Shown here: positions 1 through 62,504 of the stretch, one piece after another | Layout: each line of letters starts with the position of its first letter | How positions within the stretch are numbered: the stretch's first letter is position 1 | NCBI GenBank assembly: GCA_012932865.1 | Contig: SAXG01000015.1 | Location: forward strand, 496,001-560,000 | Length of the DNA stretch: 64,000 nt | Direction: 5' to 3' | Origin: Amylostereum areolatum | Taxonomy: Eukaryota; Basidiomycota; Agaricomycetes; Russulales; Stereaceae | Translations under genes and position numbers: made by a program | The notes under the pieces: model-generated | The model's input: only the letters and a program-made list of their open reading frames with translations | Told to the model about the DNA's origin: nothing | Databases searched by the model: none

Positions 1-1974
1 GGGCGTGGTGTGCGCCTTGATGGCGGCGGTGGGCAGGCGGTTGCGGACGTGGATGTAGGCACTGAGCGCTTCTCCCCAGAAAGACGCAGGCAGGCCGGAC
101 TCCGCAAGCATCGCGGTGACACCCTCCTCAATGGTGCGATTTGCACGCTCCGCCACGCCGTTCTGCTGAGGGCGATTGCGCGTCGTATGACGGCGCTCGA
201 TCCCGTGCAGCGAACAGAACTCGTCCATGTTGCGCCCCATGTACTCGCCCCCCTTGTCGTCCTGCAGCGCGAGCAGCTTCTCGCCTGTCTGCTTCTCGGC
301 CCACGCTTTGAAGTCCTTGAACGCCTCGTACTGGTCCGACTTCTTGCGAAGCAGGTAGACGGCGTAGAAACGCGAGGCGGCGTCGATGTAGAGGACCCAG
401 TAGCGATAGCCAGAGGCGGTGCGGACTGGAAGCGGACCGTGCAGGTCAGAGTGGACGAGGGCGAGGCGCTTTGTGTAGACGGTGGTAGAGGAGGGGAACG
501 GGTCGGCATGCATCTTGCCAGCGAGGCAGGGCTCGCAGATAGGGTCGGGCTTCTCTAACGAGTTGAAGACGAGACCGGTGACGAGATTCTCGCGCACTAT
601 GCGCTGGAGACCAGCGTGGTTGAAGTGAGCCAGGCGGCGGTGCCATAGGGACGCGTCGAGCGGCGTAGAGGCGGCGAGCGCGGCGGATAGGGCGTAGTGC
701 GACGCTGTAGAGGTGGAACCATCGAGATAGGCGGTGTTCGCATCGTTGATCGTTGCAGTGAACCACACAGCGCCGTCCTTAGCGAAGGAGACGCGGCTCC
801 CCTTGATGGTGACGACGAACGCCTTATGCTTCGCAAGGTAGAGGACAGAGAGGAGATTATTGCGAAGATGGGGAACATGGAGGACTCTAGTAAACTCGAC
901 GGCACCCTGCGCCTTTCCTGCTACAACCGGATTGAACACCACTGAACCGACTCCTGCACTGTACACCGTCTTTCCGTCTGCGAGGCGAATGGGCGTGCGA
1001 AGGGGACGGTAGGAGGCGAAGAAGTGGCGATGCGGGGTCATATGAGACGTGGCGCCGGTGTCTGCATTCCAATCGACGTCAGCATCGAGCTGCAGCGGCG
1101 AGAGGGGGTCGGAAGGAGCGACACTTGCGGATGCAGCGCTGCCAGCGTGTTCGCCAGCAGGATTGAAGCCGTCAGACGACGACGAAGCGGCGTTGGCCTT
1201 GTCCCCAAGGCGAGAACGCAGGTCCTTGATCTGCTTCTGATAGCAGGTCTTCTCCTCGTGCCCGCTCTTCTTGCAGAACGCGCAAGTGAGACGTGGACGC
1301 GAGGACTGCCCCTTGGCCTTGCCAGATGCGCCAGACGACGACGCACTGAGCGCAGACGAAGCGTCCGGCTTGAAGAACTCGGGGTTGCGCTCCCTGTTGG
1401 TCTCCTCGCGCACAAACGCGTCCTTGACGCTGTCGGGGTCGAGCTTCTCGAGCAGGAGGAGGGAGGAGACGAAGGAGGAGTACTCCGAGGGGAGGGCGCG
1501 GATGTACGCCATGGTGGTGAGCTCCTTGTCGAGCTCCTCGAGGGTGAGAGACGCAGGGCGAAGGGAACGAATGCGACGCATAGCATCGTCGACTCGCGTC
1601 GCCATAGCGAGCAGGGACTCGTCCTCCTTCTTGCGGACATTGAAGAGGTCGTCATACGCGTTGAAGCGCGCGCCAGGCGCCTTCTTGACGTGCAGCGCCT
1701 CGAGCTTCGTCCACATAGCAGGGGCGTCGCGCCTAAGGTCGTCCACAGGACCTCGCTGGTCCTTGGAGATGAGGAGGTAGATGGCACCCCCAGCCTTGGA
1801 GCAGATCGAGGTGTACTCCTTGAGGGCGGCAGCAGCAGTATCCGCCGGCTTGGACGTCTCCCCCAGCACTACAGCGTCCCAGCCCTTGGTCTGGAGCCAG
1901 GCCAGAACCTCGTTCGACCAGTCCTTGTAGTTTTGGCCGGTGAGAGCGTCGATTTTGGGGATAGAGTCGGACAT
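1..1974 (-). CDS. copia-1 Gag-protease-integrase polyprotein, intact, runs off the window
   Basis: The first 658 codons of a Ty1/copia polyprotein, open from the ATG at 1974 down to base 1 with no stop found on reading the frame. Domain order is Gag, a CCHC zinc knuckle (CAFCKKSGHEEKTC, near residues 229-242), an aspartic protease with DTGA near 304, a GAG-pre-integrase zinc region (WHRRLAHF near 442), then integrase. The integrase D, D and E residues lie in HSDLHG (about 508), DDKGGEY (about 572) and QNGVAERANR (about 605). Protease and integrase before reverse transcriptase is the copia order. A 5' LTR and primer binding site lie upstream at 2670-3132 in the same orientation. Unlike the related copies in the duplicated block, this copy lacks the 4-bp duplication that breaks Gag from protease. 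Reverse transcriptase, RNase H and the 3' LTR would lie left of the window, so whether the whole element is competent is unknown. Confidence 0.92.
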   Translation of the reverse strand, partial: MSDSIPKIDALTGQNYKDWSNEVLAWLQTKGWDAVVLGETSKPADTAAAALKEYTSICSKAGGAIYLLISKDQRGPVDDLRRDAPAMWTKLEALHVKKAPGARFNAYDDLFNVRKKEDESLLAMATRVDDAMRRIRSLRPASLTLEELDKELTTMAYIRALPSEYSSFVSSLLLLEKLDPDSVKDAFVREETNRERNPEFFKPDASSALSASSSGASGKAKGQSSRPRLTCAFCKKSGHEEKTCYQKQIKDLRSRLGDKANAASSSSDGFNPAGEHAGSAASASVAPSDPLSPLQLDADVDWNADTGATSHMTPHRHFFASYRPLRTPIRLADGKTVYSAGVGSVVFNPVVAGKAQGAVEFTRVLHVPHLRNNLLSVLYLAKHKAFVVTIKGSRVSFAKDGAVWFTATINDANTAYLDGSTSTASHYALSAALAASTPLDASLWHRRLAHFNHAGLQRIVRENLVTGLVFNSLEKPDPICEPCLAGKMHADPFPSSTTVYTKRLALVHSDLHGPLPVRTASGYRYWVLYIDAASRFYAVYLLRKKSDQYEAFKDFKAWAEKQTGEKLLALQDDKGGEYMGRNMDEFCSLHGIERRHTTRNRPQQNGVAERANRTIEEGVTAMLAESGLPASFWGEALSAYIHVRNRLPTAAIKAHTTP

Positions 1975-2669
1975 AATGAGGAATTGGAGAGGATATACGC
2001 AAAAAGCGACGATTTGGACGAGCAGAGGTTCGAGGGGGCGCCGAGGGCGATGGGATAGGGCGATGGGGGCGGGTACGACGGCGATGGGGAGGGTGGATGG
2101 TCTAGATGGAGGCCTGAAGAGCGCGTACCGATAGCACAACGCGATGGGAAGCTACACTCGTCCGATCCCAAGGTGAAAATTTCTCGAAACAGCCTCCTGC
2201 AAACAACGAGCTCCTGAGGGCGAACGGCTTCAGCGACGGCTACCGCGTTTGGCGAGGGGGTAGGTAGGGTGGTAGGGAGGGCTGACGCGAAGCGAGGTAG
2301 CAAACGGTTGAAGGGGCGCTGAGGGCGCCTTTGATGTTTGTGGGAGGAGGAGGAGGAAGCGTCACAGGCTGTGGACGCGCAGCGACAAAAGCGACGGCCT
2401 TGGGGCTTGGCACGAAGTTGGATAGGGAGTAGTAGATGCGGAATATGCAAGGGCGAGGCGAACGGATGAAGGGGCGTTGCGTGCGCGCTTGATGTTGCGA
2501 AATGCGCGCCCTGGAGGATGGGGATGGCGTTGGGAGGCGACGGATGGGTCGTTCGACTTGAAACTCGAGGGCTGGGGCCTCTAGGGATGGTAGGAGAGGT
2601 GTGTAGAAGGACGAGGCGAGGGGGGTGCTGTGAGGCGAGATAAAAGCGATGGATGTTGGCTAGAGCGCA
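1975..2669 (-). other. 5' leader of copia-1, no gene
   Basis: The stretch between the primer binding site and the Gag ATG of copia-1, about 0.7 kb. Open frames here (for example on the minus strand from 2450) run out of frame into Gag and look accidental. Two imperfect copies of a motif containing TGAAGGGGCG and TTGATGTT lie about 160 bp apart (near 2310 and 2470), which suggests a small tandem duplication in the leader. Confidence 0.6.
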
Positions 2670-2681
2670 GGGCCCATAACC
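2670..2681 (-). promoter_or_regulatory. copia-1 primer binding site, half-tRNA type
   Basis: Reading the minus strand, the LTR end TTCAACA is followed at once by GGTTATGGGCCC. This complements GGGCCCATAACC, the anticodon arm of eukaryotic initiator tRNA-Met, rather than a tRNA 3' end. Drosophila copia is known to prime from a cut initiator tRNA-Met and has a primer site starting with this same string. The site fixes the orientation of the 451-bp LTR family. Confidence 0.8.
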
Positions 2682-3132
2682 TGTTGAAGTCGCAGTTGAA
2701 GGGGCTAGCCAACTAGCTAGGGACGCTCAGAACTGACACAAACAGTGGATTGCTGCAGCACAGAATGAGCGACTGAGAAACAAGACAGAAACGAGCAAAG
2801 GGCATACCTGCAGCACAGAATGAGCGACTGAGGAGGAGCAGACGCGTGTGGCTGCAGGTAGAGGCCATGGAGCGTGGGAGGAAACTCGGAATAAGCCGAG
2901 AATCGACCTAAAGCGGTAACTAACTCGAAACTGAAGCTAGGGAAGCTAGCTCAGGCTGAACTACAGTAAGTACAGTACAATAGCGAACAGTGGGTGAAGT
3001 GGAGAGGGCATGTGAGGGTATAGACGCGGAATTAGATGATAATAGGGTGAATGGAGCGGAATAGACGCGAATAGAAGGGAGATAGAACAGAATAAAGGCG
3101 TAGAAATCAGACATAAACGAATATCTTCAACA
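2682..3132 (-). repeat. 5' LTR of copia-1 (451 bp)
   Basis: Bounded by TGTTGAAG and CTTCAACA, the short inverted termini of a copia LTR. It is followed on the minus strand by the primer binding site, so it is a true 5' LTR. The flank outside it (GTTCC from 3133) lies in an older copia integrase fragment. The duplicate block carries that fragment without an LTR near 12323, so copia-1 inserted here. A 64-codon ATG frame starts at 3114 on the minus strand and is present in most copies of this LTR; its meaning is doubtful. Confidence 0.88.
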
Positions 3133-3512
3133 GTTCCATCTCTACAGTGTTGTACTACGCCCTTTCCACCGCGCTCGCTGCCTCTATGCCTCTCGACGCG
3201 TGTCTATGGTACCGCCGCCTTGCGCACTTCAACTATGCTGGCCTCCAGCACATAGTGCACGAGAACCTCGTCACTGGTCTGATCTTCAACCCATTAGAGA
3301 AGCCCGACCCTATCTGCGAGCCCTGCCTTGCTGGCAAGATGCATGTTGACCCGTTCCCCTCCTCTACCACTATTTACACAAAGTGCCTCACCATCGTCCT
3401 CTCCGACTTGTGTAGTCCGCTTCCAGTCCGCACCGCCTTATTGACTATGTAGGGATATTGGGTCATCCTAGCCGACCTTACATCATGTATGGTCTGTTCG
3501 CGCTAACACCCC
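3133..3512 (+). pseudogene. decayed copia integrase fragment
   Basis: Matches the GAG-pre-integrase and early integrase region of the intact copia copies (LWYRRLAHFNYAGLQ against LWHRRLAHFNHAGLQ). It keeps the CEPCLAGK motif but loses the first catalytic aspartate context (LSDLCSPLP against HSDLHGPLP). A stop follows near 3450, after which weak homology continues to about 3512. Many differences from the intact copies are C-to-T or G-to-A, as in GCGTCGCAC becoming GTGTTGTAC. The left part is cut off by the copia-1 insertion; the duplicate at 12305 extends further left. Confidence 0.8.
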
Positions 3513-7218: not shown

Positions 7219-7411
7219 CGTCGATTGGAATGCAGACACCGGCGCCACGTCTCATATGACCCCGCATCGCCACTTCTTCACCTCCTATCGTCCCCTTCGC
7301 ACGCCCATTCGCCTCGCAGACGGAAAGACGGTGTACAGTGCAGGAGTCGGCTCAGTGGTGTTCAATCCGGTTGTAGCAGGAAAGGCGCAGGGCGCCGTCG
7401 AGTTTACTAGA
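7219..7411 (+). pseudogene. copia protease and early integrase, left piece, copy A
   Basis: Continues the polyprotein in the +1 frame relative to Gag: the DTGA protease motif, then MTPHRHFF and onward. Interrupted at 7411 by a TRIM whose target duplication is CTAGA; the coding sequence resumes at 7915. The uninterrupted version of the same sequence is in copy B. Confidence 0.85.
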
Positions 7412-7457
7412 TGTTGAAAACACAGAGGGACCTTCAGTCATAAAGTGAAACACAAAG

Positions 7458-7531
7458 TGGACTGGCCGGGGATTGAACCCAGGACCTCCCATATTCTAGA
7501 AGGGTGCTCTAACCAACTGAGCTACCTGTCC
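7458..7531 (-). tRNA. tRNA-like gene in TRIM-a right-strand LTR 1
   Basis: A 74-nt cloverleaf. The D stem GCTC-GAGC and the T stem pair fully, the T loop is TTCAATC, and the usual invariant bases are present (T8, A14, G18-G19, A21, T33, the T54-T55-C56 run, A58, C61). The acceptor stem GGACAGG against CCAGTCC has one A-A mismatch, and the anticodon stem has one T-T mismatch. Box A (TAGCTCAGTTGG) and box B (GGTTCAATCC) fit a Pol III promoter. The canonical reading gives anticodon AGA (serine), but the variable arm is short (5 nt), unlike tRNA-Ser, so isotype is uncertain and it may serve mainly as a promoter. Confidence 0.7.
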
Positions 7532-7751
7532 GATAGTGGGAACAGGTTGGTAGTTGATATAGAGAATATCACCGAGCTCTGATTGTGTGCAACAGGCCAG
7601 GGCTTAGCCTTATTTCAACACACCCCCGTAAGACCAGGCCTGATGTGATCTTAGGCACTCGCCACTTGTGCCCAACAGTAATCATGAAGGCGGGTGCTGC
7701 TACCATGTTGAAAACACAGAGGGACCTTCAGTCATAAAGTGAAACACAAAG

Positions 7752-7825
7752 TGGACTGGCCGGGGATTGAACCCAGGACCTCCCATATTCTAGAAGGGTG
7801 CTCTAACCAACTGAGCTACCTGTCC
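7752..7825 (-). tRNA. tRNA-like gene in TRIM-a second LTR
   Basis: Identical to the gene at 7458-7531, 294 bp further on, inside the second LTR. The pair is a product of LTR duplication during reverse transcription, not two independent genes. Confidence 0.7.
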
Positions 7826-7914
7826 GATAGTGGGAACAGGTTGGTAGTTGATATAGAGAATATCACCGAGCTCTGATTGTGTGCAACAGGCCAGGGCTTA
7901 GCCTTATTTCAACA

Positions 7915-8996
7915 CTAGAGTCCTCCATGTTCCCCATCTTCGCAATAATCTCCTCTCTGTCCTCTACCTTGCGAAGCATAAGGCGTTCGTCGTCACCATC
8001 AAGGGGAGCCGCGTCTCCTTCGCTAAGGACGGCGCTGTGTGGTTCACTGCGACGATCAACGACGCGAACACCGCCTATCTCGACGGTTCCACCTCTACAG
8101 CGTCGCACTACGCCCTTTCCGCCGCGCTTGCCGCCTCTACGCCTCTCGACGCGTCCCTATGGCACCGCCGCCTTGCGCACTTCAACCACGCCGGTCTCCA
8201 GCGCATAGTGCGGGAGAACCTCGTCACTGGTCTCGTCTTCAACTCATTAGAGAAGCCCGACCCTATCTGCGAGCCCTGCCTCGCTGGCAAGATGCACGCG
8301 GACCCGTTCCCCTCCTCTACCACCGTCTACACAAAGCGCCTCGCCCTCGTCCACTCCGACCTGCATGGCCCGCTTCCAGTCCGCACTGCCTCTGGCTATC
8401 GCTACTGGGTCCTCTACATCGACGCCGCCTCGCGTTTCTACGCCGTCTACCTGCTTCGCAAGAAGTCGGACCAGTACGAAGCGTTCAAGGACTTCAAAGC
8501 GTGGGCCGAGAAGCAGACAGGCGAGAAGCTGCTCGCGCTGCAGGACGACAAGGGGGGCGAGTACATGGGTCGCAACATGGACGAGTTCTGTTCGCTGCAC
8601 GGGATCGAGCGCCGTCATACGACGCGCAATCGCCCTCAGCAAAACGGCGTAGCGGAGCGTGCAAATCGCACCATTGAGGAGGGCGTCACTGCGATGCTTG
8701 CGGAGTCCGGCCTGCCTGCGTCTTTCTGGGGAGAAGCGCTCAGTGCCTACATCCACGTCCGCAACCGCCTCCCCACCGCCGCTATCAAGGCGCACACCAC
8801 GCCCTTTGAGCTCTGGCACGGGTCCAAGCCGGATGTGAGTCATCTGCGCGTGTGGGGATGCACCGCATACGTCCACGTCCAGCGCGACAAGCGCAAGGGC
8901 CTGCAGCCGCACATGGTGAAGGCCGCCTTCATCGGGTACCCCGAGGGGTACAAAGGCTGGAAGTTCTGGGACCCTATAGCGAAGAAGGTCATCATT
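7915..8996 (+). pseudogene. copia integrase, right piece, copy A
   Basis: Resumes the protease-integrase frame after TRIM-a and covers the GAG-pre-integrase zinc region (WHRRLAHFNHAGLQ), then integrase with D (HSDLHG), D (DDKGGEY) and E (QNGVAERANR) all present. It ends at 8996, where TRIM-b is inserted with target duplication TCATT. After that element the frame continues at 9505. Integrase residues match copia-1 closely. Confidence 0.88.
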
Positions 8997-9085
8997 TGTT
9001 GAAATAAGGCTAAGCCCTGGCCTGTTGCACACAATCAGAGCTCGGTGATATTCTCTATATCAACTACCAACCTGTTCCCACTATC

Positions 9086-9159
9086 GGACAGGTAGCTCAG
9101 TTGGTTAGAGCACCCTTCTAGAATATGGGAGGTCCTGGGTTCAATCCCCGGCCAGTCCA
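9086..9159 (+). tRNA. tRNA-like gene, TRIM-b first LTR
   Basis: Same 74-nt sequence as in TRIM-a, here on the plus strand and so easiest to read: G1-C72 acceptor, discriminator A73, canonical anticodon AGA at its positions 34-36, short variable loop. Box A starts 7 nt into the gene and box B about 51 nt in. No CCA is encoded and no T-run terminator follows directly; the next bases are CTTTGTGTTTC. Confidence 0.7.
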
Positions 9160-9379
9160 CTTTGTGTTTCACTTTATGACTGAAGGTCCCTCTGTGTTTT
9201 CAACATGGTAGCAGCACCCGCCTTCATGATTACTGTTGGGCACAAGTGGCGAGTGCCTAAGATCACATCAGGCCTGGTCTTACGGGGGTGTGTTGAAATA
9301 AGGCTAAGCCCTGGCCTGTTGCACACAATCAGAGCTCGGTGATATTCTCTATATCAACTACCAACCTGTTCCCACTATC

Positions 9380-9453
9380 GGACAGGTAGCTCAGTTGGTT
9401 AGAGCACCCTTCTAGAATATGGGAGGTCCTGGGTTCAATCCCCGGCCAGTCCA
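9380..9453 (+). tRNA. tRNA-like gene, TRIM-b second LTR
   Basis: Identical to 9086-9159, within the second LTR of TRIM-b. Confidence 0.7.
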
Positions 9454-9499
9454 CTTTGTGTTTCACTTTATGACTGAAGGTCCCTCTGTGTTTTCAACA

Positions 9500-10018
9500 T
9501 CATTTGCGAGTGTGCCAACTTTGACGAGCGCGATTTCCCTCGCTCCAGGCTGAACAAGCCGCTCCTGCCCTCGCCTTCCGCTCCCCTCTTCCCTCCTCCG
9601 CCTCCATCGGAGCCTGCTCCCTCTCAGCCGGTGCTGGATGCCGGGGGGGACGACGACTCGTCCTCTGCTGAGCAAGACGAGCCTGTTCTGCCTCCAGCTC
9701 CGCCTGCTGATGAGCATGATCAGGATGCGGCCGATCCCGCTCCTGCGCCGCCTGCAGCCGATCCTGCACCTCCCTCTCCACATGCGGGTCCTTCGCGGCC
9801 TGGCGTCGAATTCGGAGCCCGTTCTCGACGAGATCATCGCCACCCTTCGCTCGCACTTCAAGCTGCGAGATCTCGGCCCCACCTCCTTCCTCCTTGGCAT
9901 CCACATCACTCGAGACCGCTCTCTGCACACCCTCTTCCTCTCCCAGCGCCAGTACATCATCGACACGCTTGCACGCTATAACCACGCCGACTGCCACCCT
10001 GTCACCATGCCTATGCTG
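9500..10018 (+). pseudogene. copia integrase tail fused to a reverse transcriptase C-terminal piece, copy A
   Basis: The first 300 bp continue copia integrase into its proline- and acid-rich linker (about 9505-9800). At about 9803 the sequence jumps to a later reverse transcriptase segment (LASNSEPVLDEIIATL through CHPVTMPML) in a different frame. The catalytic fingers and palm, including the FVDD box, are deleted. This segment differs slightly from the RT at 19854-20518 (EPVLDEIIATLRSH against EPVVDEIITTLRTH), so it is from another copia copy. It ends at 10018, at a fragment of copia LTR. Confidence 0.8.
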
Positions 10019-10102
10019 CGGAATAAAGGCGTAAAAATCAGACATAAACGAATATCTTCAACAAGATATTCGTTTATGTCTGATTTTTACGCCTTTATTC
10101 CG
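10019..10102. repeat. 40-bp-arm palindrome at a head-to-head LTR junction, copy A
   Basis: Left arm 10019-10058, loop CAAC at 10059-10062, right arm 10063-10102; the arms look perfectly complementary. It forms because a 45-bp LTR end in minus orientation (10019-10063) abuts an LTR in plus orientation that has lost its first few bases. The transcript or single strand would fold into a long hairpin. Confidence 0.85.
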
Positions 10103-10507
10103 TTCTATCTCCCTTCTATTCGCGTCTATTCCACTCCATTCACCCTATTATCGTCTCATTCCGCGTCTATACCCTCACATGCCCTCTCCACTTCACCTAC
10201 TGTACCCATTTGTACTGTACTTACTGTAGTTCAGCCTGAGTTAGCTTCCCTAGCTTCAGTTTCGAGTTAGTTACCGCTTTAGGTCGATTCTCGGCTTATT
10301 CCGAGTTTCCTCCCACGCTCCGTGGCCTCTACCTGCAGCCACACGCGTCTGCTCCTCCTCAGTCGCTCATTCTGTGCTGCAGGTATGACCCTTGCTTGTT
10401 TCTGTCTTGTTTCTCAGTCGCTCTTCTGTGCTGCAGCAATCCACTGTTTGTGTCAGTTCTGAGCGTCCCTAGCTAGTTGGCTAGCCCCTTCAACTGCGAC
10501 TTCAACA
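10064..10507 (+). repeat. copia LTR, plus orientation, missing its first 6-7 bp
   Basis: LTR of the 451-bp family. It lacks the TGTTGA start and ends in GCGACTTCAACA at 10507. No primer binding site follows (GTGGGCGAATG), so it is not a functional 5' LTR; the sequence to its right is a reverse transcriptase leader piece. Confidence 0.83.
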
Positions 10508-10668: not shown

Positions 10669-10714
10669 TGTTGAAAACACAGAGGGACCTTCAGTCATAA
10701 AGTGAAACACAAAG

Positions 10715-10788
10715 TGGACTGGCCGGGGATTGAACCCAGGACCTCCCATATTCTAGAAGGGTGCTCTAACCAACTGAGCTACCTGTCC
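10715..10788 (-). tRNA. tRNA-like gene, TRIM-c first LTR
   Basis: Same 74-nt tRNA-like sequence as in TRIM-a, minus strand, with identical mismatches. Confidence 0.7.
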
Positions 10789-11008
10789 GATAGTGGGAAC
10801 AGGTTGGTAGTTGATATAGAGAATATCACCGAGCTCTGATTGTGTGCAACAGGCCAGGGCTTAGCCTTATTTCAACACACCCCCGTAAGACCAGGCCTGA
10901 TGTGATCTTAGGCACTCGCCACTTGTGCCCAACAGTAATCATGAAGGCGGGTGCTGCTACCATGTTGAAAACACAGAGGGACCTTCAGTCATAAAGTGAA
11001 ACACAAAG

Positions 11009-11082
11009 TGGACTGGCCGGGGATTGAACCCAGGACCTCCCATATTCTAGAAGGGTGCTCTAACCAACTGAGCTACCTGTCC
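11009..11082 (-). tRNA. tRNA-like gene, TRIM-c second LTR
   Basis: Identical copy in the second LTR of TRIM-c. Confidence 0.7.
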
Positions 11083-11171
11083 GATAGTGGGAACAGGTTG
11101 GTAGTTGATATAGAGAATATCACCGAGCTCTGATTGTGTGCAACAGGCCAGGGCTTAGCCTTATTTCAACA

Positions 11172-12304: not shown

Positions 12305-12702
12305 GCAATGCCTATCTCAATGGTTCCATCTCTACAGTGTTGTACTACGCCCTTTCCACCGCGCTCGCTGCCTCTATGCCTCTCGACGCGTGTCTATGGT
12401 ACCGCCGCCTTGCGCACTTCAACTATGCTGGCCTCCAGCACATAGTGCACGAGAACCTCGTCACTGGTCTGATCTTCAACCCATTAGAGAAGCCCGACCC
12501 TATCTGCGAGCCCTGCCTTGCTGGCAAGATGCATGTTGACCCGTTCCCCTCCTCTACCACTATTTACACAAAGTGCCTCACCATCGTCCTCTCCGACTTG
12601 TGTAGTCCGCTTCCAGTCCGCACCGCCTTATTGACTATGTAGGGATATTGGGTCATCCTAGCCGACCTTACATCATGTATGGTCTGTTCGCGCTAACACC
12701 CC
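12305..12702 (+). pseudogene. decayed copia integrase fragment, copy B
   Basis: Second copy of the fragment at 3133-3512. It extends further left (AATGCCTATCTCAATGG matches the integrase upstream codons) because copia-1 did not insert here. From 12323 rightward it appears identical to copy A at an offset of 9190. Confidence 0.8.
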
Positions 12703-13642
12703 CCCCCAAGTTGTCATATGGTGCTCGGCGCCTATACAGCACTACTTTTGTGCAGCAGCCAAATCAGCGGTCCAGCGAGAATAAATATGAAAAAGATGAG
12801 TCAAAATGTACTGAGATCAACGATGTTGCCCTTGAATACATCCTTGACCTTCATACATCCTTGACCTTCACCTCAGCAGCCAAGAACACAGCCCAGTCCG
12901 AGGTATATAGTGTGCCGCATTCAGTGAGGAAGCAACAGACATAGTGGGTGGCATTGACGCTGCCGACATGGCGCATAAAGGGTGGACCTGCCAGCCTCTG
13001 CAGGATGGCCTCACACCATTCCACAATAGCACCCTCAACACCATTCTTCAGAAAGCGTAAGAATCTCTTGGGAGACTTCATGGGTGGTGTCGGAGGAGGT
13101 AGAGCCAGGAATGACACCGAGCCATATACGACGGGACCAAGACTCCCTTCTCCTCCTCTCCCGGCGGTCCATGGGTGAAGAAGCGGGCAGGGTCGACAGA
13201 CGACCAGTTGATCTTCTGAGCCTTGATCAGGTCATGGCTCTCGGGACCAACACTGTGCCAGACACCATTGGGAAGAGCAAGAAAAGGCATACTGATCTCT
13301 TTGTGGCAGGCCGTAATGGGCTTCAGTCCTCGTGTGCTTGCGCAATGCAGAGCTGCTTGCGCTTGATGGTGAAGAATGGGCACCAACTCATCCAGGTCTC
13401 GCATGTTGCTGCAGAGGCACATAGATTTGCAAAACTTTGGGGGAGCCGCCTACTTTGTCGTTGGTTGAAGGACTGAGTTGAAAAGCGGGTGCTTCCAACA
13501 TCGGACCGAGGCTGCTACACAAAAATGTTCTCGCTTCTCCAGGATCCAGTGGTCCGTGCCAAATTATGTTCCTTTGTCCACTCAAAGAAATGGGCCATGG
13601 ACCCGAAGAAGCTGGCAGAGTACACGGCAAGCACATCGCATG
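12703..13642. other. copy B of unassigned sequence and DDE-like fragment
   Basis: Same as 3513-4452, including the possible DDE-transposon fragment (13489-13642). Nothing further recognised. Confidence 0.5.
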
Positions 13643-14093
13643 TGTTGAAGTCGCAGTTGAAGGGGCTAGCCAACTAGCTAGGGACGCTCAGAACTGACAC
13701 AAACAGTGGATTGCTACAGCACAGAATGAGCGACTAAGAAACAAGACAGAAACGAGCAAGGGGCATACCTGCAGCACAGAATGAGCGACTGAGGAGGAGC
13801 AGACGCGTGTGGCTGCAGGTAGAGGCCACGGAGCGCGGGAGGAAACTCGGAATAAGCCGAGAATCGACCTAAAGCGGCAACTAACTCGAAACTGAAGCTA
13901 GGGAAGCTAGCTCAGGCTGAACTACAGTAAGTACAGTACAATAGCGAACAGTGGGTGAAGTGGAGAGGGCATGTGAGGGTATAGACGCGGAATGAGACGA
14001 TAAGAGGGTGAATGGAGCGGAATAGAAGCGAATAGAACGGAGATAGAACGGAATAAAGGCGTAGAAATCAGACATAAACGAATATCTTCAACA
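13643..14093 (-). repeat. solo copia LTR, copy B
   Basis: Counterpart of 4453-4903 at offset 9190, with the same non-matching flanks. Confidence 0.85.
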
Positions 14094-14107
14094 TTATCTG
14101 GGTCTCG

Positions 14108-14317
14108 TTGGTCCCAACGGACTTCTTCACCAGGGAACACATCGAGCGGAGACAGTCACAGGATGCGTCCCATCTTAACGACGACGACTTCAGTGTGCTC
14201 GCGTTCATTGCCAACAGGCTCGAGAACATGCGAGTCGAGGACATACGCTGCAACCCCCAATTGTATCCGAATATCAGTAACCGTGGGACGTTCATGGCCG
14301 GCTGCAACTTACTGTGA
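14108..14317 (+). CDS. hypothetical exon fragment, copy B
   Basis: Identical to 4918-5127. No recognised family; it ends at a GTGAGT splice-site-like sequence. Confidence 0.35.
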   Translation: MVPTDFFTREHIERRQSQDASHLNDDDFSVLAFIANRLENMRVEDIRCNPQLYPNISNRGTFMAGCNLL

Positions 14318-15125
14318 GTCCTATGTAACCCTTCTCGACTGCGTGCACGTAAGCATTGCAGAGCGCACGCGCGTACGCTCTGCGACGTTTACACGCACTC
14401 ACACGCGTTTCACTGCTATATTATATACACTGCTATATTATGTCTTTAACTGGATATATCAATAAGCTATGCTTGTCATGAACACCCTACGTACAGATAC
14501 GACCTACCTATTTTACATACAATTGTTATGAAGAATGACGAGAAGTTGAAGAAGAATTGTAACTGCAGGCCCACCACTTTCAACCGAGGGAATTGTGATA
14601 AAATCGGTTCTGGGTCAAAGTGCATAGTCAAAGTGCATAATCAATCGCTTCCGTCACATGGAGGAACAAGTGGAGTAAGCTCACCCTGAATAAACCATCC
14701 CGATCATCGCTCACAGGCGCAAAACTCCTGGTATAGCCCTGTCAATTGACAGGCCTTCAGTTGAAACGTCGTTGGGGGCATTGCCAGTCACAAGAAATCT
14801 GACAAGATCGGTGATGCCCAATCGGGGAACAGATTCGCTAGGATGTCGACCATTCGAGGATTGTCGACCATTCGCGGCGATACTAACACATACATTGAGT
14901 TATCCAGCTGAGGTTCAGTGAGACTGGTGCACTCACCAAGATCCCCCCTCTGACAATGATGTTGATTGTTCAATCCATGTCTTCTAGAAGAATGTGTAGC
15001 AGATCATCAGCATCCTTCCCAAGCAGATATCGACAGGTGCACTTGACACATAATGTGTGGACATAGGGCAAGAACACACAGATTTCAGCCATCCCTATGA
15101 AGCGAGTGTGAGTGAATACAGAGAA
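14318..15125. other. no gene seen, copy B
   Basis: Same as 5128-5935. Confidence 0.5.
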
Positions 15126-15568
15126 TGTTGAAGTCGCAGGTGAGCCAACTAGCTAGGGACGCTCAGAACTGACACAAACAGTGGATTGCTGCAGCACAGA
15201 ATGAGCGACTGAGGAGCAAGACAGAAACGAGCAAAGGGCATACCTGCAGCACAGAATGAGCGACTGAGGAAGAGCAGACGCGTGTGGCTGCAGGTAGAGG
15301 CCATGGAGCGTGGGAGGAAACTCGGAATAAGCCGAGAATCGACCTAAAGCGGTAACTAACTCGAAACTGAAGCTAGGGAAGCTAACTCAGGCTGAACTAC
15401 AGTAAGTACAGTACAAATGGGTACAGTAGGTGAAGTGGAGAGGGCATGTGAGGGTATAGACGCGGAATGAGACGATAATAGGGTGAATGGAGTGGAATAG
15501 ACGCGAATAGAAGGGAGATAGAACGGAATAAAGGCGTAGAAATCAGACATAAATGAATATCTTCAACA
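15126..15568 (-). repeat. solo copia LTR, 443 bp, copy B
   Basis: Counterpart of 5936-6378, with the same 8-bp deletion and the same junction into Gag. Confidence 0.85.
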
Positions 15569-16408
15569 AACGAGGTACTAGCCTGGCTCCAGACCAAGGG
15601 CTGGGACGCTGTAGTGCTGGGTGAGACATCCAAGCCGGCGGATACTGCTGCTGCCGCCCTCAAGGAGTACACATCGATCTGCTCCAAGGCTGGGGGTGCC
15701 ATCTACCTCCTCATCTCCAAGGACCAGCGAGGTCCTGTGGACGACCTTAGGCGCGACGCCCCTGCTACGTGGACGAAGCTCGAGGCACTGCACGTCAAGA
15801 AGGCGCCTGGCGCGCGCTTCAACGCGTATGACGACCTCTTCAACGTCCGCAAGAAGGAGGACGAGTCCCTGCTCGCTATGGCGACGCGAGTCGACGATGC
15901 TATGCGTCGCATTCGTTCCCTTCGCCCTGCGTCTCTCACCCTCGAGGAGCTCGACAAGGAGCTCACCACCATGGCGTACATCCGCGCCCTCCCCTCGGAG
16001 TACTCCTCCTTCGTCTCCTCCCTCCTCCTGCTCGAGAAACTCGACCCTGACAGCGTCAAGGACGCGTTTGTGCGCGAGGAGACCAACAGAGAGCGCAATC
16101 CCGAGTTCTTCAAGCCGGATGCTTCGTCTGCGCTCAGTGCGTCGTCGTCTGGCGCATCTGGCAAGGCCAAGGGGCAGTCCTCGCGTCCACGTCTCACTTG
16201 CGCGTTCTGCAAGAAGAGCGGGCACGAGGAGAAGACCTGCTACCAGAAGCAGATCAAGGACCTGCGCTCTCGCCTTGGGGACAAGGCCAACACCGCGTCC
16301 TCGTCGTCTGACGGCTTCCACCCTGCTGGCGAACACGCCGGCAGCGCTGCATCCGCAAGTGTCGCTCCCTCCGACCCCCTCTCGCCGCTGCAGCTAGCTC
16401 GATGCTGA
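15569..16408 (+). pseudogene. copia Gag, 5'-truncated, copy B
   Basis: Same as 6379-7218: starts inside Gag, keeps the CCHC knuckle and ends at the TGA created by the 4-bp duplication. Reaching protease would need a +1 shift. Confidence 0.88.
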
Positions 16409-17678
16409 CGTCGATTGGAATGCAGACACCGGCGCCACGTCTCATATGACCCCGCATCGCCACTTCTTCACCTCCTATCGTCCCCTTCGCACGCCCATTC
16501 GCCTCGCAGACGGAAAGACGGTGTACAGTGCAGGAGTCGGCTCAGTGGTGTTCAATCCGGTTGTAGCAGGAAAGGCGCAGGGCGCCGTCGAGTTTACTAG
16601 AGTCCTCCATGTTCCCCATCTTCGCAATAATCTCCTCTCTGTCCTCTACCTTGCGAAGCATAAGGCGTTCGTCGTCACCATCAAGGGGAGCCGCGTCTCC
16701 TTCGCTAAGGACGGCGCTGTGTGGTTCACTGCGACGATCAACGACGCGAACACCGCCTATCTCGACGGTTCCACCTCTACAGCGTCGCACTACGCCCTTT
16801 CCGCCGCGCTTGCCGCCTCTACGCCTCTCGACGCGTCCCTATGGCACCGCCGCCTTGCGCACTTCAACCACGCCGGTCTCCAGCGCATAGTGCGGGAGAA
16901 CCTCGTCACTGGTCTCGTCTTCAACTCATTAGAGAAGCCCGACCCTATCTGCGAGCCCTGCCTCGCTGGCAAGATGCACGCGGACCCGTTCCCCTCCTCT
17001 ACCACCGTCTACACAAAGCGCCTCGCCCTCGTCCACTCCGACCTGCATGGCCCGCTTCCAGTCCGCACTGCCTCTGGCTATCGCTACTGGGTCCTCTACA
17101 TCGACGCCGCCTCGCGTTTCTACGCCGTCTACCTGCTTCGCAAGAAGTCGGACCAGTACGAAGCGTTCAAGGACTTCAAAGCGTGGGCCGAGAAGCAGAC
17201 AGGCGAGAAGCTGCTCGCGCTGCAGGACGACAAGGGGGGCGAGTACATGGGTCGCAACATGGACGAGTTCTGTTCGCTGCACGGGATCGAGCGCCGTCAT
17301 ACGACGCGCAATCGCCCTCAGCAAAACGGCGTAGCGGAGCGTGCAAATCGCACCATTGAGGAGGGCGTCACTGCGATGCTTGCGGAGTCCGGCCTGCCTG
17401 CGTCTTTCTGGGGAGAAGCGCTCAGTGCCTACATCCACGTCCGCAACCGCCTCCCCACCGCCGCTATCAAGGCGCACACCACGCCCTTTGAGCTCTGGCA
17501 CGGGTCCAAGCCGGATGTGAGTCATCTGCGCGTGTGGGGATGCACCGCATACGTCCACGTCCAGCGCGACAAGCGCAAGGGCCTGCAGCCGCACATGGTG
17601 AAGGCCGCCTTCATCGGGTACCCCGAGGGGTACAAAGGCTGGAAGTTCTGGGACCCTATAGCGAAGAAGGTCATCATT
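16409..17678 (+). pseudogene. copia protease-integrase, uninterrupted, copy B
   Basis: The protease (DTGA) and integrase region without TRIM-a. From the ATG at 16446 the frame is open for about 410 codons through the zinc region and the D, D and E residues, to the TRIM-d insertion at 17679. It has no start of its own, since it is joined to Gag only by a +1 shift. It is the pre-insertion reference for TRIM-a, with the single CTAGA at 16597-16601. Confidence 0.9.
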
Positions 17679-17767
17679 TGTTGAAATAAGGCTAAGCCCT
17701 GGCCTGTTGCACACAATCAGAGCTCGGTGATATTCTCTATATCAACTACCAACCTGTTCCCACTATC

Positions 17768-17841
17768 GGACAGGTAGCTCAGTTGGTTAGAGCACCCTTC
17801 TAGAATATGGGAGGTCCTGGGTTCAATCCCCGGCCAGTCCA
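17768..17841 (+). tRNA. tRNA-like gene, TRIM-d first LTR
   Basis: Same 74-nt tRNA-like sequence, plus strand. Confidence 0.7.
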
Positions 17842-18061
17842 CTTTGTGTTTCACTTTATGACTGAAGGTCCCTCTGTGTTTTCAACATGGTAGCAGCACC
17901 CGCCTTCATGATTACTGTTGGGCACAAGTGGCGAGTGCCTAAGATCACATCAGGCCTGGTCTTACGGGGGTGTGTTGAAATAAGGCTAAGCCCTGGCCTG
18001 TTGCACACAATCAGAGCTCGGTGATATTCTCTATATCAACTACCAACCTGTTCCCACTATC

Positions 18062-18135
18062 GGACAGGTAGCTCAGTTGGTTAGAGCACCCTTCTAGAAT
18101 ATGGGAGGTCCTGGGTTCAATCCCCGGCCAGTCCA
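18062..18135 (+). tRNA. tRNA-like gene, TRIM-d second LTR
   Basis: Identical copy in the second LTR of TRIM-d. Confidence 0.7.
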
Positions 18136-18181
18136 CTTTGTGTTTCACTTTATGACTGAAGGTCCCTCTGTGTTTTCAACA

Positions 18182-18700
18182 TCATTTGCGAGTGTGCCAA
18201 CTTTGACGAGCGCGATTTCCCTCGCTCCAGGCTGAACAAGCCGCTCCTGCCCTCGCCTTCCGCTCCCCTCTTCCCTCCTCCGCCTCCATCGGAGCCTGCT
18301 CCCTCTCAGCCGGTGCTGGATGCCGGGGGGGACGACGACTCGTCCTCTGCTGAGCAAGACGAGCCTGTTCTGCCTCCAGCTCCGCCTGCTGATGAGCATG
18401 ATCAGGATGCGGCCGATCCCGCTCCTGCGCCGCCTGCAGCCGATCCTGCACCTCCCTCTCCACATGCGGGTCCTTCGCGGCCTGGCGTCGAATTCGGAGC
18501 CCGTTCTCGACGAGATCATCGCCACCCTTCGCTCGCACTTCAAGCTGCGAGATCTCGGCCCCACCTCCTTCCTCCTTGGCATCCACATCACTCGAGACCG
18601 CTCTCTGCACACCCTCTTCCTCTCCCAGCGCCAGTACATCATCGACACGCTTGCACGCTATAACCACGCCGACTGCCACCCTGTCACCATGCCTATGCTG
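18182..18700 (+). pseudogene. copia integrase tail fused to RT piece, copy B
   Basis: Same as 9500-10018, at offset 8682: integrase linker, then an internal jump into a late RT segment. Confidence 0.8.
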
Positions 18701-18784
18701 CGGAATAAAGGCGTAAAAATCAGACATAAACGAATATCTTCAACAAGATATTCGTTTATGTCTGATTTTTACGCCTTTATTCCG
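18701..18784. repeat. 40-bp-arm palindrome, copy B
   Basis: Same hairpin as 10019-10102: arms 18701-18740 and 18745-18784 with loop CAAC. That both copies keep it suggests it is real or was duplicated as such. Confidence 0.83.
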
Positions 18785-19189
18785 TTCTATCTCCCTTCTA
18801 TTCGCGTCTATTCCACTCCATTCACCCTATTATCGTCTCATTCCGCGTCTATACCCTCACATGCCCTCTCCACTTCACCTACTGTACCCATTTGTACTGT
18901 ACTTACTGTAGTTCAGCCTGAGTTAGCTTCCCTAGCTTCAGTTTCGAGTTAGTTACCGCTTTAGGTCGATTCTCGGCTTATTCCGAGTTTCCTCCCACGC
19001 TCCGTGGCCTCTACCTGCAGCCACACGCGTCTGCTCCTCCTCAGTCGCTCATTCTGTGCTGCAGGTATGACCCTTGCTTGTTTCTGTCTTGTTTCTCAGT
19101 CGCTCTTCTGTGCTGCAGCAATCCACTGTTTGTGTCAGTTCTGAGCGTCCCTAGCTAGTTGGCTAGCCCCTTCAACTGCGACTTCAACA
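18746..19189 (+). repeat. copia LTR, plus orientation, copy B
   Basis: Counterpart of 10064-10507. Confidence 0.83.
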
Positions 19190-19350
19190 GTGGGCGAATG
19201 ACGACGTCTACTTCGCGCAGGAGACGCCTGAGGCCGCCTTTGCCATCCACACCGCGTTGGAGACCGCCCTGCTATCCGCAGACGGCGAGCCGTTCTCCTA
19301 CTGGCAGGCTATGCAGCGTCCAGACGCGGAGATGTGGCTTGCAGCGTGCA
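19190..19350 (+). pseudogene. copia pre-RT segment, copy B
   Basis: Same as 10508-10668. Here the coding sequence resumes after TRIM-e at 19859 in the same protein. Confidence 0.82.
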
Positions 19351-19396
19351 TGTTGAAAACACAGAGGGACCTTCAGTCATAAAGTGAAACACAAAG

Positions 19397-19470
19397 TGGA
19401 CTGGCCGGGGATTGAACCCAGGACCTCCCATATTCTAGAAGGGTGCTCTAACCAACTGAGCTACCTGTCC
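19397..19470 (-). tRNA. tRNA-like gene, TRIM-e first LTR
   Basis: Same 74-nt tRNA-like sequence, minus strand. Confidence 0.7.
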
Positions 19471-19690
19471 GATAGTGGGAACAGGTTGGTAGTTGATATA
19501 GAGAATATCACCGAGCTCTGATTGTGTGCAACAGGCCAGGGCTTAGCCTTATTTCAACACACCCCCGTAAGACCAGGCCTGATGTGATCTTAGGCACTCG
19601 CCACTTGTGCCCAACAGTAATCATGAAGGCGGGTGCTGCTACCATGTTGAAAACACAGAGGGACCTTCAGTCATAAAGTGAAACACAAAG

Positions 19691-19764
19691 TGGACTGGCC
19701 GGGGATTGAACCCAGGACCTCCCATATTCTAGAAGGGTGCTCTAACCAACTGAGCTACCTGTCC
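19691..19764 (-). tRNA. tRNA-like gene, TRIM-e second LTR
   Basis: Identical copy in the second LTR of TRIM-e. Confidence 0.7.
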
Positions 19765-19853
19765 GATAGTGGGAACAGGTTGGTAGTTGATATAGAGAAT
19801 ATCACCGAGCTCTGATTGTGTGCAACAGGCCAGGGCTTAGCCTTATTTCAACA

Positions 19854-20518
19854 GTGCAGAGAGGAGCGCAACGCGCATGCAGCCAACGGCACCTGGGCTA
19901 TCGCTTCCCTTCCCCCTGGCGCGCACGCCGTCGCATCGCGCTGGGTCTTCAAGGTCAAGCGCAAGGAGGACGGCTCTATCGAGCGCTACAAGGCGCGCAT
20001 CGTCGCCAAGGGCCTTGCCCAGCGTCCTGGCTTCGACTACTTCGAGACCTTCGCCCCCACTGCCAAGTTCCAGGCCATCCCCACTGTCCTCGCCCTCGCC
20101 GCCGTCGAGGATCTCCACCTGCGCTCCATCGACATCTCCCATGCCTTCATCAATGGCGACCTCAATGCGGAGGTCTACATGAAGCAACCTGAGGGCTTCG
20201 AGGAGGGTCCTCCTGGCGCGGTCTGCAAGCTGCAGAAGTCGATCTATGGCCTCAAGCAGGCCGCTCGCCTGTGGAAGATCAAGCTGATGGAGGTCCTGTG
20301 CGACAAGATGGGATTCCGCTGCATCTACAGCGACGCGTCGATTTATGTGCTTCAGCGCGACGCTGTGCGCGTTCTCCTCCCTGTCTTCGTCGATGATGGC
20401 ACCCTAGCGTCAAATTCGGAGCCTGTTGTCGACGAGATCATCACCACTCTTCGCACACACTTCAAGCTGCGAGACCTCGGTCCTACCTCCTTCCTCCTTG
20501 GCATCCACATCACTCGAG
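19854..20518 (+). pseudogene. copia reverse transcriptase, 3'-truncated
   Basis: The copia-type (RVT_2) reverse transcriptase core, about 220 codons. It runs from the NGTWAI region through KARIVAKG, SIDISHAFINGDL (first catalytic aspartate), YMKQPEGF and SIYGLKQAAR to the FVDD catalytic pair and FLLGIHITR. It stops at 20518 where a copia LTR begins, so the RT tail and RNase H are missing. It is present only in the right-hand block; copy A lost it at the TRIM-c edge. Confidence 0.9.
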
Positions 20519-22755: not shown

Positions 22756-23780
22756 GATCTTGGCCTATTGTGCCAAGGGGACCATAGTTGGGGGTGACAA
22801 TGACACCGGTGTAGGCGAGGGTGTCCATGATACTGGGGATGATGCCGCAAACCTCCTCGGTGAGGCGTTGCAGCATCACAAGGAGCTCGCCATGCTGTCA
22901 TGCAGCCTCCAACCTCTCCAGGTGGAGGTGGAGGATGATCGCCATGACCGGCGAGCCGTAAACTCCAATAGTGGGGGGCGCAGGGAGGAGCGGTGTGGAG
23001 AGGATGGAGGGCCCGGGAGCAAAGAAGGAGGTGGGGGGGCCTGGGGGGGCGACCAGCGAGAGGTGGGAAGCTAGCAGGGGTGGGTGGGCTCGCAAGGGCG
23101 GGAATTGGTGGCGACGGGGGCCCATTATCAATCTCCATCGCGCTATCATCAACTGCATGAGTCTTGCCCTTGGACGAGGTCTGCTAGGCAGATCGTTGGA
23201 TAATGAGGAGGCCCATGAGAGGTGGGAGGGGGGAGGGCTTTGCCAAGGGGACAACAACCTCTACGTGGCGAGCAGGGAGGTCTGCGGTGGGGGATGCGGT
23301 AGGTGGCGGGGTATCACCAATGTTGACTGTTTCCTCCTTGCTAGGCTCTCGCTGAGCCCTCTTCATCAACTTCTTGGTGGTGGGCTTGGGGGCCGCAGGT
23401 ATATCAAACAGGAGGACGTCATTGTCGCCGATGTTGGTGGTAGACTCCTTGGTGGCAAAGTTGGTGGGGGCTGGCCGGGTCTTCCTCATCGCCGACTTCA
23501 GCGGTGCAAGCTTGGGGCAAGGTGGGGGGACATCCATGTTGGGCCGACGCCTAGCACCCGGCCGTCCACCTCCACCTCCACATGCAACCCATTGGCAAAA
23601 AAAAACAATGATCTCCCACAAGATCGACCAGCCACGATGACGCGTGTCGCTCGCTCGTTGCCCTGTTTCAACGGGTCTCACCTCCAAGGCCGGCCCCCCG
23701 CAGTCCCGCTCCCTCTCCCCATAAATCTCCCGCACGATCCTCCGAAATCGTTGACACAAATACCCCATCTGCACCCCCAT
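22756..23780 (-). pseudogene. probable upstream part of the same decayed gene
   Basis: Minus-strand frames continue with coding-like text. A 198-codon frame (23780-23184) includes AMRKTRPAPTNFATKESTTN and a Pro-rich region, and another (23257-22898) is rich in Pro and Leu. Frames shift several times. The plus-strand 224- and 279-codon frames over the same bases are Gly- and Arg-rich mirror images and look accidental. I do not recognise a domain. Confidence 0.3.
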
Positions 23781-23911
23781 CCATTCCGTCTTTCACTTGC
23801 TTCCCAATAATGTCCTTTCACCCCCCCCCCAAAAGAAAAAACCCCCCATCTCCATCATCTTCCTCACCCAACCCCTCAAAACAATCCTAACATTGTCCCC
23901 CTGCTCCTGTC

Positions 23912-43407: not shown

Positions 43408-43830
43408 TGTCACGGATCGCTCCATTTCTCTCTTCATTTGCAGACCTCGTACACGCGACGTGTCATGGCACATGACTTTCTCTTGCATCACATGCTTCAA
43501 CGACGTCATTGCCTGGACTTCCGAGCGGGGTTCCGCGTTCTTATCTATGACATCATTGCTCCGGACCTTCGTCCTCCGCCCCATGACTCCTTTCTTATTG
43601 TTCCCCCCGCTCGCACCACTATTGCATCACATCGCACCATCGTTCCCACTTGTATATAAGGACAGTGTTTCTCTTCCCTTTTCCCTAGACTGTCCATCTC
43701 GTCATACAGTACTGTAGCGCATGTTGCACTACCCTAGGCCTGACACTCTCGAATCCATCTGTTCTCTCTTGCTCCTCCCATTGTCGCGACTTAGGCGGTT
43801 CCATCGGTCTCATAAACTGCGTTTCTGACA
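43408..43830 (+). repeat. 5' LTR of gypsy-2 (423 bp)
   Basis: TGTCACGGATCG to GCGTTTCTGACA. A TATATAAGGACAGTGT box near 43653 is a likely promoter. The downstream bases CCTGGACAGTCTACC may contain the primer binding site (TGGACAG), offset by two bases. Confidence 0.9.
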
Positions 43831-44451
43831 CCTGGACAGTCTACCCTACGCCTACCTCACACCCCTCTCCCCTATACCTCCCTCGCCATCTCTACGACGT
43901 TAAAAACCCCCACCCTGGAACCCACCGCCGAACCGATCTTTCTCACCTTCAATCTCCAAGCATTCAACCCCGATCGCAACGCCCCGTTCCCCTGGCCCCG
44001 AGCAAACGTGGCCACCGTCGATCGCATACGAGCTCTCGAACTCCTTTGTAGGGAACATACCTGGAAGGTCCACGGAGTCAATTGCTGCATATACGAGTGG
44101 CGCTGGAATCACGATCACGGTAGGCAGACAATCCTCTGCCTCTACGCTCGTGTCGTTGCGTGCTTTGACGTAGATCGGAACCGGTTCGAATTCTCAATTC
44201 ACTCCCCCACCTGGCACACCTGTTCCAACACCCATCTACCTCCATCGATCATCCGACACAACTTCCCTACCATCTACAATTTCGCAATCCCCACACCGGA
44301 ATCCACCCCGCCACTAGTCCTCCGTCCCACTATCAAGGGCAAGACCCTCCGCCACCGTCACCTCAAACACAAGATCCGCCAGGCTGTAAAAGCCGGCTAC
44401 CTCACCCAGAAACTCCTCGGTCGTCGCCCCGTCGCGGCCGACTTCTTCTAG
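43831..44451 (+). pseudogene. gypsy-2 first gag-region frame
   Basis: A frame open from the LTR edge to a TAG at 44449 without an obvious ATG. It includes the coding-like stretch ATVDRIRALELLCREHTWKV and a basic end (KGKTLRHRHLKHKIRQAVKA). The protein then seems to continue in the next frame from 44457 (FPPGIFRNYCPYEYSVL), so either a frameshift mutation or two separate gag-region frames. Gypsy-5 likewise has an extra frame ahead of its gag. Confidence 0.6.
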
Positions 44452-44456
44452 AATCA

Positions 44457-45982: not shown

Positions 45983-46056
45983 CTGAAGGATCTGGATGCG
46001 GAAGGCAAGGAGCAGGCAGTAGCGCTGTTGAAGGACATCCTGGAATTGCAGGATTT

Positions 46057-50148: not shown

Positions 50149-50503
50149 CTTTCTCTTGCATCACATGCTTCAACGACGTCATTGCCCGGACTTCCGAGCG
50201 GGGTTCCGCGTTCTTATCTATGACATCATTGCTCCGGACCTTCGTCCTCCGCCCCATGACTCCTTTCTTATTGTTCCCCCCGCTCGCACCACTATCGCAT
50301 CGCATCGCACCATTGTTCCCACTTGTATATAAGGACAGTGTTTCTCTTCCCTTTTCCCTAGACTGTCCATCTCGTCATACGGTACTGTAGCGCACGTTGC
50401 ACTACCCTAGGCCTGACACTCTCGAATCCATCTGTTCTCTCTTGCTCCTCCCATCGTCGCGACTTAGGCGGTTCCATCGGTCTCATAAACTGCATTTCTG
50501 ACC
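50081..50503 (+). repeat. 3' LTR of gypsy-2 (423 bp)
   Basis: Same length as the 5' LTR. The last base is C instead of A (CTGACC). Retains more CpG than the 5' LTR at sites such as CACGGC, GCCCGG, CATACGG and CGCACG. Confidence 0.9.
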
Positions 50504-62493: not shown

Positions 62494-62504
62494 AGGGGCA
62501 AAGG

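Follow-up and report, generated by a model that had tools for sequence, protein, structure and literature searches.

A Helenus-type TRIM whose LTRs each carry a tRNA-like sequence, and its candidate Copia helper, in Amylostereum areolatum

TRIMs whose LTRs contain tRNA-derived sequences were described in 2024 by Kojima under the name Helenus (PMC10886601). According to the portions of that paper on which we draw, Helenus elements are 311-1263 bp long, most have a box A of the form TRGCY...YGG and a GGTTC box B, and disagreement between the isotype of the anticodon and that of the tRNA body is common among them without being defining. Fungal members are flanked by 5-bp target site duplications (TSDs), a Copia helper has been inferred for them, and their priming mostly involves the anticodon of the initiator-Met tRNA (iMet), with priming from the iMet 3' end having arisen several times. 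The text of the paper, though not its Table 1, lists Amylostereum areolatum, a member of the Russulales, as one of the Agaricomycete hosts. Kojima views the tRNAs of Helenus as mostly non-functional, and leaves transcription by Pol III unproven. Other systems of similar design are Cassandra of plants, which has been reported in tandem arrays (PMC7215508), Ajax of nemerteans, with partial 5S rRNA sequence and a tRNA-Leu primer, and LTR-1_PTrit, a fungal Helenus paired with Copia-9_PGr, in which the entire core of the TRIM finds its match at the ends of the internal Copia region and the partners come from two species (PMC10886601).

We analysed a 64-kb stretch of A. areolatum DNA (C56:496001-560000, called the window below), and searched the 57.13-Mb genome (182 contigs) for related sequences. 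The original prediction, made from the letters of the window alone, placed a TRIM with a tRNA gene inside each LTR at positions 7412, 8997, 10669, 17679 and 19351, and all five copies are found there (Table 1). Its description of the anatomy was also accurate: each copy is 503 bp long and consists of an identical pair of 209-bp LTRs around an 85-bp core, which holds a primer site starting with TGG and a G-run, and codes for no protein. Having two LTRs in less than 1000 bp, without space for reverse transcriptase (RT) or integrase, the element is a TRIM by size and structure. The LTR termini are TGTTGAAATAAGG...TGTTTTCAACA, giving the end motif TGTTGAA...TTCAACA, and the core begins with TGGTAGCAGCACC and finishes with ACGGGGGTG, a G-run, but not a pure purine tract, that adjoins the second LTR. 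The 5-bp target duplication that had been attributed to the element is present at four of the five copies, and absent from the one at 10669. Ajax has in common with this element the TRIMp3 design and TSDs of 5 bp (PMC10886601).

Table 1. Coordinates, within the 64-kb window, of the TRIM copies, their parts and the adjoining Copia element.
Feature	Position	Strand	Details
TRIM copy 1	7412..7914	-	503 bp; TSD CTAGA 7407-7411 / 7915-7919; insertion postdates segmental duplication
TRIM copy 2	8997..9499	+	LTRs 8997-9205, 9291-9499; TSD TCATT 8992-8996 / 9500-9504
TRIM copy 3	10669..11171	-	Without TSD (GTGCA / GCTCG); flanks fit crossover of two other TRIM copies
TRIM copy 4	17679..18181	+	Duplicate of copy 2; TSD TCATT
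TRIM copy 5	19351..19853	-	TSD GTGCA 19346-19350 / 19854-19858; one of two presumed crossover parents of copy 3
Primer-binding site (PBS) TGGTAGCAGCACC, copy 2	9206..9218	+	Perfectly complementary over 13 nt to 3' end of host initiator-Met tRNA once CCA is appended
PPT-like run TTACGGGGGTG, copy 2	9280..9290	+	Directly 5' of 3' LTR
TATA, copy 2 5' LTR	9056..9059	+	LTR position 60; 30 bp upstream of tRNA-like start (position 90)
TTTT, copy 2 5' LTR	9197..9200	+	LTR position 201; sole sense-strand TTTT of LTR; candidate weak Pol III terminator; again at 9491-9494
tRNA-like sequence, copy 2 5' LTR	9086..9159	+	RF00005 56.1 bits, ARAGORN; box A TAGCTCAGTTGG, box B GGTTCAATCC; twin 9380-9453
Empty site of copy 1	16597..16601	.	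Single CTAGA inside duplicated segment
Dominant Copia 5' LTR (TGTTGAAG...CTTCAACA)	2682..3132	-	PBS GGTTATGGGCCCTGCGC at 2665-2681, complementary to iMet anticodon region
Dominant Copia open frame, 5' part	1..2139	-	gag, Pol_BBD, gag_pre-integrase, weak integrase-core match; runs off window

The ten tRNA-like genes expected from the original prediction, each with box A and box B, were recovered in full by two programs: ARAGORN found ten in the window, every one within a TRIM LTR, and Rfam RF00005 gave the same ten matches, at 56.1 bits each (E 2.2e-9; gathering score 29). Box A and box B satisfy the Helenus patterns. 5S rRNA, the hallmark of Cassandra, is absent from the LTRs, all ten Rfam matches in the window at gathering score being tRNA; the two elements are alike as TRIMs with a promoter derived from a Pol III gene in each LTR, and differ in its source (5S rRNA in Cassandra, tRNA here) and in the kingdom of the host. 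Read by eye, the acceptor stem and the anticodon stem have one mismatch apiece. The anticodon assigned by ARAGORN is AGA, although the body lacks the long variable arm present in host tRNA-Ser genes, and the fold is barely better than that of shuffled sequences (z -1.25). Of five nuclear host tRNAs compared (Ile, iMet, Gly, Leu and Ser), the nearest is Ile-AAT, with 55 of 79 aligned columns. The stem mismatches and the apparent conflict of isotype agree with Kojima's non-functional view (PMC10886601), and because of these features the statement that each insertion spreads tRNA genes is true of the sequences, which do spread, but should be worded as tRNA-like sequences.

Genome-wide, a 40-mer that begins with box A, takes in the anticodon arm and excludes box B found 166 tRNA-like stretches at up to 3 mismatches, vs none with the reversed control; a genome search with RF00005 scored 63 of 1434 candidates and is not the basis of any count. 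So many near-identical stretches, and a score far above the cut-off of the tRNA family, are what might be expected if the LTRs provided a working tRNA maintained by host selection. We consider this very improbable, since both stems contain a mismatch, the AGA anticodon is not accompanied by the long variable arm of host tRNA-Ser, the folding signal is weak, and recent identical copies require no selection. The published genome of A. areolatum lists 457 tRNA genes (PMC7227769), and, on the figures taken from that paper, up to 36% of them could be transposon LTRs (166 stretches); tRNA counts in such genomes may therefore be inflated by tRNA-like sequences in LTRs.

The start of the LTR, searched as a 24-mer with up to 2 mismatches, occurs 167 times in the genome vs 0 times for the reversed pattern, and this abundance is therefore not due to chance. 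Among the matches listed for the LTR-start and tRNA-like searches (the first 100 of each), all were without mismatch. Flanks were surveyed in loci L001-L062, in which LTR units with 12-nt flanks were collected if they had at most 2 mismatches in each end motif and were not cut by the end of the locus. The survey yielded 86 LTR units, 69 of them identical to the window LTR, and 37 paired complete elements with 33 distinct flank pairs, of which 30 show a perfect 5-bp duplication. The two LTRs are identical in 36 of the 37 complete elements, and those of the remaining one are of unequal length. Solo LTRs account for seven units (three with a target duplication). The three complete flank pairs without duplication are those of the 10669 copy, which has both flanks in common with other complete copies, of a copy on C134, which has only the right flank in common, and of C139:1155165, for which neither flank is found among complete copies and the right one recurs beside an LTR in L032. 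Relatives of the empty site (up to 4 mismatches in 50) were found for 18 of the 30 duplication-flanked insertions. Since the copies are nearly identical, with identical LTR pairs, TSDs and empty sites, the family is young and has recently multiplied. Exact searches with a 42-mer of the tRNA-like sequence in viral contigs, and with a 20-mer across the LTR end and PBS in bacterial and archaeal contigs, gave no matches.

These results bear on whether the 209-bp repeats are LTRs at all, for a tRNA-bearing repeat that spread by tandem or segmental duplication would also be present in multiple copies, and segmental duplication does account for part of the copy number in the window. This alternative is refuted by the 5-bp TSDs at 30 of 33 distinct insertions, by their presence on many contigs and by the empty sites, and we give it practically no weight. 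The genome search that the original prediction called for thus returned copies elsewhere with 5-bp duplications, as an LTR element should have. No larger autonomous element containing the TRIM core was found, all 40 core candidates scored (of 56) being of the TRIM type. At two loci TRIMs are joined to each other: at C96:474205-474714 (L045) two TRIM cores lie inverted, linked by a 68-bp LTR-end remnant, with the outer LTRs kept and the inner ones lost, and at C32:62626-63626 there is a head-to-tail TRIM pair, the first member of which is without about its last 5 bp. Several tRNA loci on different contigs have almost identical flanks (L070/L077 on C34 and C150; L087/L092; L088/L090), and the assembly seems to keep some regions of both nuclei of the dikaryon, or duplicates that were not removed.

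In the window itself, the segment 3122-11172 is duplicated as 12313-19854, including the pairs 8997/17679 and 10669/19351. The second segment lacks the 7412 copy and has a lone CTAGA at its empty site; the insertion of this copy therefore came after the segmental duplication. The 10669 copy, read on the plus strand, has the left flank of the 19351 copy and the right flank of another copy, located at C56:491.5k; the target duplications of these two copies are complete. This is the pattern expected of an unequal crossover between two TRIM copies, and, judging from the flanks, the 10669 copy is probably the product of such an event; crossover between TRIM copies would also explain why the duplicated segment stops at the edge of a TRIM. 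The prediction of five copies therefore holds for the number of elements, but not for the number of independent insertions: the five represent three insertions, a duplication and a putative crossover product.

The hallmarks of a TRIM are all observed, namely LTR anatomy too short for RT or integrase, identical LTRs, a PBS for a tRNA 3' end, a PPT-like run, 5-bp TSDs and empty sites, and together with the tRNA-like matches in each LTR they support the reading given in the original prediction. The element agrees with published Helenus (PMC10886601) in having a tRNA-like sequence per LTR, in length (503 bp), PBS, PPT, 5-bp TSDs and a putative Copia link, and in host species. We consider it very likely to be a Helenus-type TRIM (TRIMp3) from A. 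areolatum, moved by a Copia-type helper. From its description, we infer that it belongs to the A. areolatum Helenus family of that paper. The question whether this kind of element had already been described is thereby answered: it had, as Helenus (PMC10886601).

Candidate helpers were sought with the Copia RT profile PF07727 (RVT_2), which gave 130 matches in the genome. Of these, 76 were sorted by score and extent alone, into a dominant family with 45 entries, family 1 with 27 and family 3 with 4, and the 54 left unsorted are mostly partial and perhaps include other families. Open frames of 1495 aa are recorded for 16 of the dominant family's 45 entries. The LTR ends TGTTGAA/TTCAACA of the TRIM are common to the dominant Copia and family 1, and are not those of family 3. 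For the TRIM, positions were taken from a 12-mer of the PBS, which has 60 sites genome-wide (14 for the reversed control); 55 were assigned to the TRIM, since their positions are those of the 52 exact matches and three of the four one-mismatch matches of a 17-mer, and these include incomplete elements. Of the 55 sites, some of which are duplicates and not independent, 43 fall within 20 kb of a dominant-Copia RT, a zone that takes up no more than 2.0% of the genome, and 45 fall within 50 kb; the remaining 12 and 10, respectively, are farther from any listed dominant-family RT. By comparison, family 1 has none of the 55 within 20 kb and three within 50 kb (1.3-fold), and there is no enrichment near listed Gypsy matches (4/55 at 20 kb, 0.8-fold; 150 scored of 949 candidates). 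Nor do the other families gather at the dominant Copia, which has 0 of 27 family-1 matches and 4 of 150 listed Gypsy matches within 20 kb. TRIM copies occur on 19 contigs, and 15 of these also have a dominant-family entry.

The two elements also meet directly. The dominant-Copia LTR start abuts TRIM LTR sequence at two places (one junction each in L028 and L032), and several TRIM insertions sit in Copia sequence that the window also contains; TRIM and Copia therefore moved in overlapping times. Shared sequence was sought by BLAST of the TRIM against the dominant Copia LTR and leader (window 1-3140), and only chance-level matches were obtained. In this respect the element differs from the LTR-1_PTrit pair: TRIM and Copia are here in one genome, and no Copia likeness was found beyond the LTR termini and G-run. 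The PPT was set aside as evidence for a helper, because by eye it resembles those of the three Copia families at 9, 8 and 7 of 12 positions, which is not discriminating. Taken together, the common LTR ends and genomic address lead us to lean towards the dominant Copia in particular as the mobilizer, with the reservation that the co-clustering could come from common retention and not from a common integrase.

The primer site complicates this picture. Six iMet genes were located in the host; four end in ...GAGGTGCTGCTA and, with CCA added, have 13 nt perfectly complementary to the TRIM site TGGTAGCAGCACC, while two end in ...GGAGTGCTGCTA and match it over 12 nt. Priming from the iMet 3' end places the window TRIM in the minority type among fungal Helenus (PMC10886601). 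The PBS of the dominant Copia, GGTTATGGGCCC (17 nt including the following bases), that of family 3, also GGTTATGGGCCC, and that of family 1, GGCTATGGGCCC, which has one mismatch, are all directed to the iMet anticodon region, and a 3'-end PBS like that of the TRIM is absent from the one copy of each family inspected. This difference is what would be seen if the same TRIM were moved by another element that itself primes from the iMet 3' end, either a Gypsy or a Copia now lost or missing from the assembly, and a rust element, Copia-39_PHord, does use this end (PMC10886601). Against this, the 5 of 60 12-nt PBS sites that are non-TRIM include none near a listed RVT_2 match or at its 5' side (by eye), the same is true of the CAACA-TGGTAGC junction outside the TRIM, these two patterns (the 12-nt PBS, or the PBS after a CAACA LTR end) being the scope of the search, and the listed Gypsy matches scored are not enriched near the TRIM. 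We regard another mobilizer as possible, though it is not our preferred reading. With the dominant Copia as helper, we tentatively propose that the TRIM primes at the intact iMet 3' end while the Copia primes from the iMet anticodon region (half-tRNA). If true, the TRIM would have the tRNA species and integrase ends of its helper in common, but not its primer site, and trans-mobilization would need neither a common PBS nor common internal sequence.

Transcription of the TRIM by Pol III is plausible and, on balance, somewhat more likely than not. Each LTR has one sense-strand TTTT, which starts 38 nt past the last base of the tRNA-like sequence, and four Ts end Pol III transcription only weakly in some fungi. 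Many Pol III transcripts should nevertheless end early, at the TTTT within the 5' LTR. In the model that we favour, Pol III would initiate on the tRNA-like part of the 5' LTR, would sometimes read through this TTTT near the end of the LTR, and would stop at the matching TTTT of the 3' LTR, yielding an RNA with terminal repeats about 110-115 nt long, sufficient for strand transfer; the terminal repeats of Cassandra RNA are 18 bp (PMC10886601). First-strand synthesis would then be primed by intact iMet, with RT and integrase supplied in trans by the dominant Copia. The mobile RNA might instead be a Pol II product that depends on the TATA (LTR position 60), with the tRNA-like part as a passenger or a source of short RNA only. 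A Pol II start lies some 30 bp downstream of TATA, which is the spacing seen here, such that the start sites of Pol II and Pol III would almost coincide, and the expected loss of many Pol III transcripts at the TTTT also speaks for this alternative. Against it, 166 copies retain the stretch from box A to the anticodon arm with up to 3 mismatches, as is expected of young copies regardless, box B is retained in the ten window copies, and the design recurs across many Helenus families (PMC10886601). We regard Pol II as the less likely source. The TATA was rejected as evidence for Pol III, since the upstream regions of host tRNA genes show, by eye, no TATA at a fixed place.

No paper combining all the terms sought was returned by a literature search on fungal LTRs that contain tRNA genes. 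Apart from Kojima's paper, the name Helenus came up together with retrotransposons in a 2026 meeting report and in a butterfly genome paper, with two mentions and one mention, respectively. As far as the literature searched shows, the kind of element is not new, and the additions are the Copia association, the primer-site mismatch and the crossover product; relative to published Helenus, the association within the same genome and the apparent crossover product distinguish the window TRIM. A young, near-identical Helenus family together with a probable helper with long open frames in one assembled genome opens Pol III transcription, the primer used and the helper to testing.

The TRIM and the dominant Copia mostly form one cluster per contig, away from listed Gypsy and other Copia, on C1, C32, C34, C41, C56, C96, C98, C100, C108, C139, C149 and others, with exceptions that include a TRIM at C76:624k, far from a Copia at C76:853k. 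These clusters could be centromeres. Nine open reading frames of the window were checked, lying in 1-2139 (the Copia frame), 22971-23807, 36377-37105, 41505-51422 and 61153-63605; six are retrotransposon-like (one with a chromodomain), one is DUF6589 and two are without a Pfam match. At 10020-10103 and 18702-18785 of the window, Copia LTR starts are paired head to head to give a near-perfect palindrome (GGAATAAAGGCG...CGCCTTTATTCC). Copia RT matches follow one another at constant steps of ~3.7, 4.0 and 4.3 kb in C41:8100-20016, C148:185243-197992 and C85:71284-80125, which suggests tandem LTR-internal arrays.
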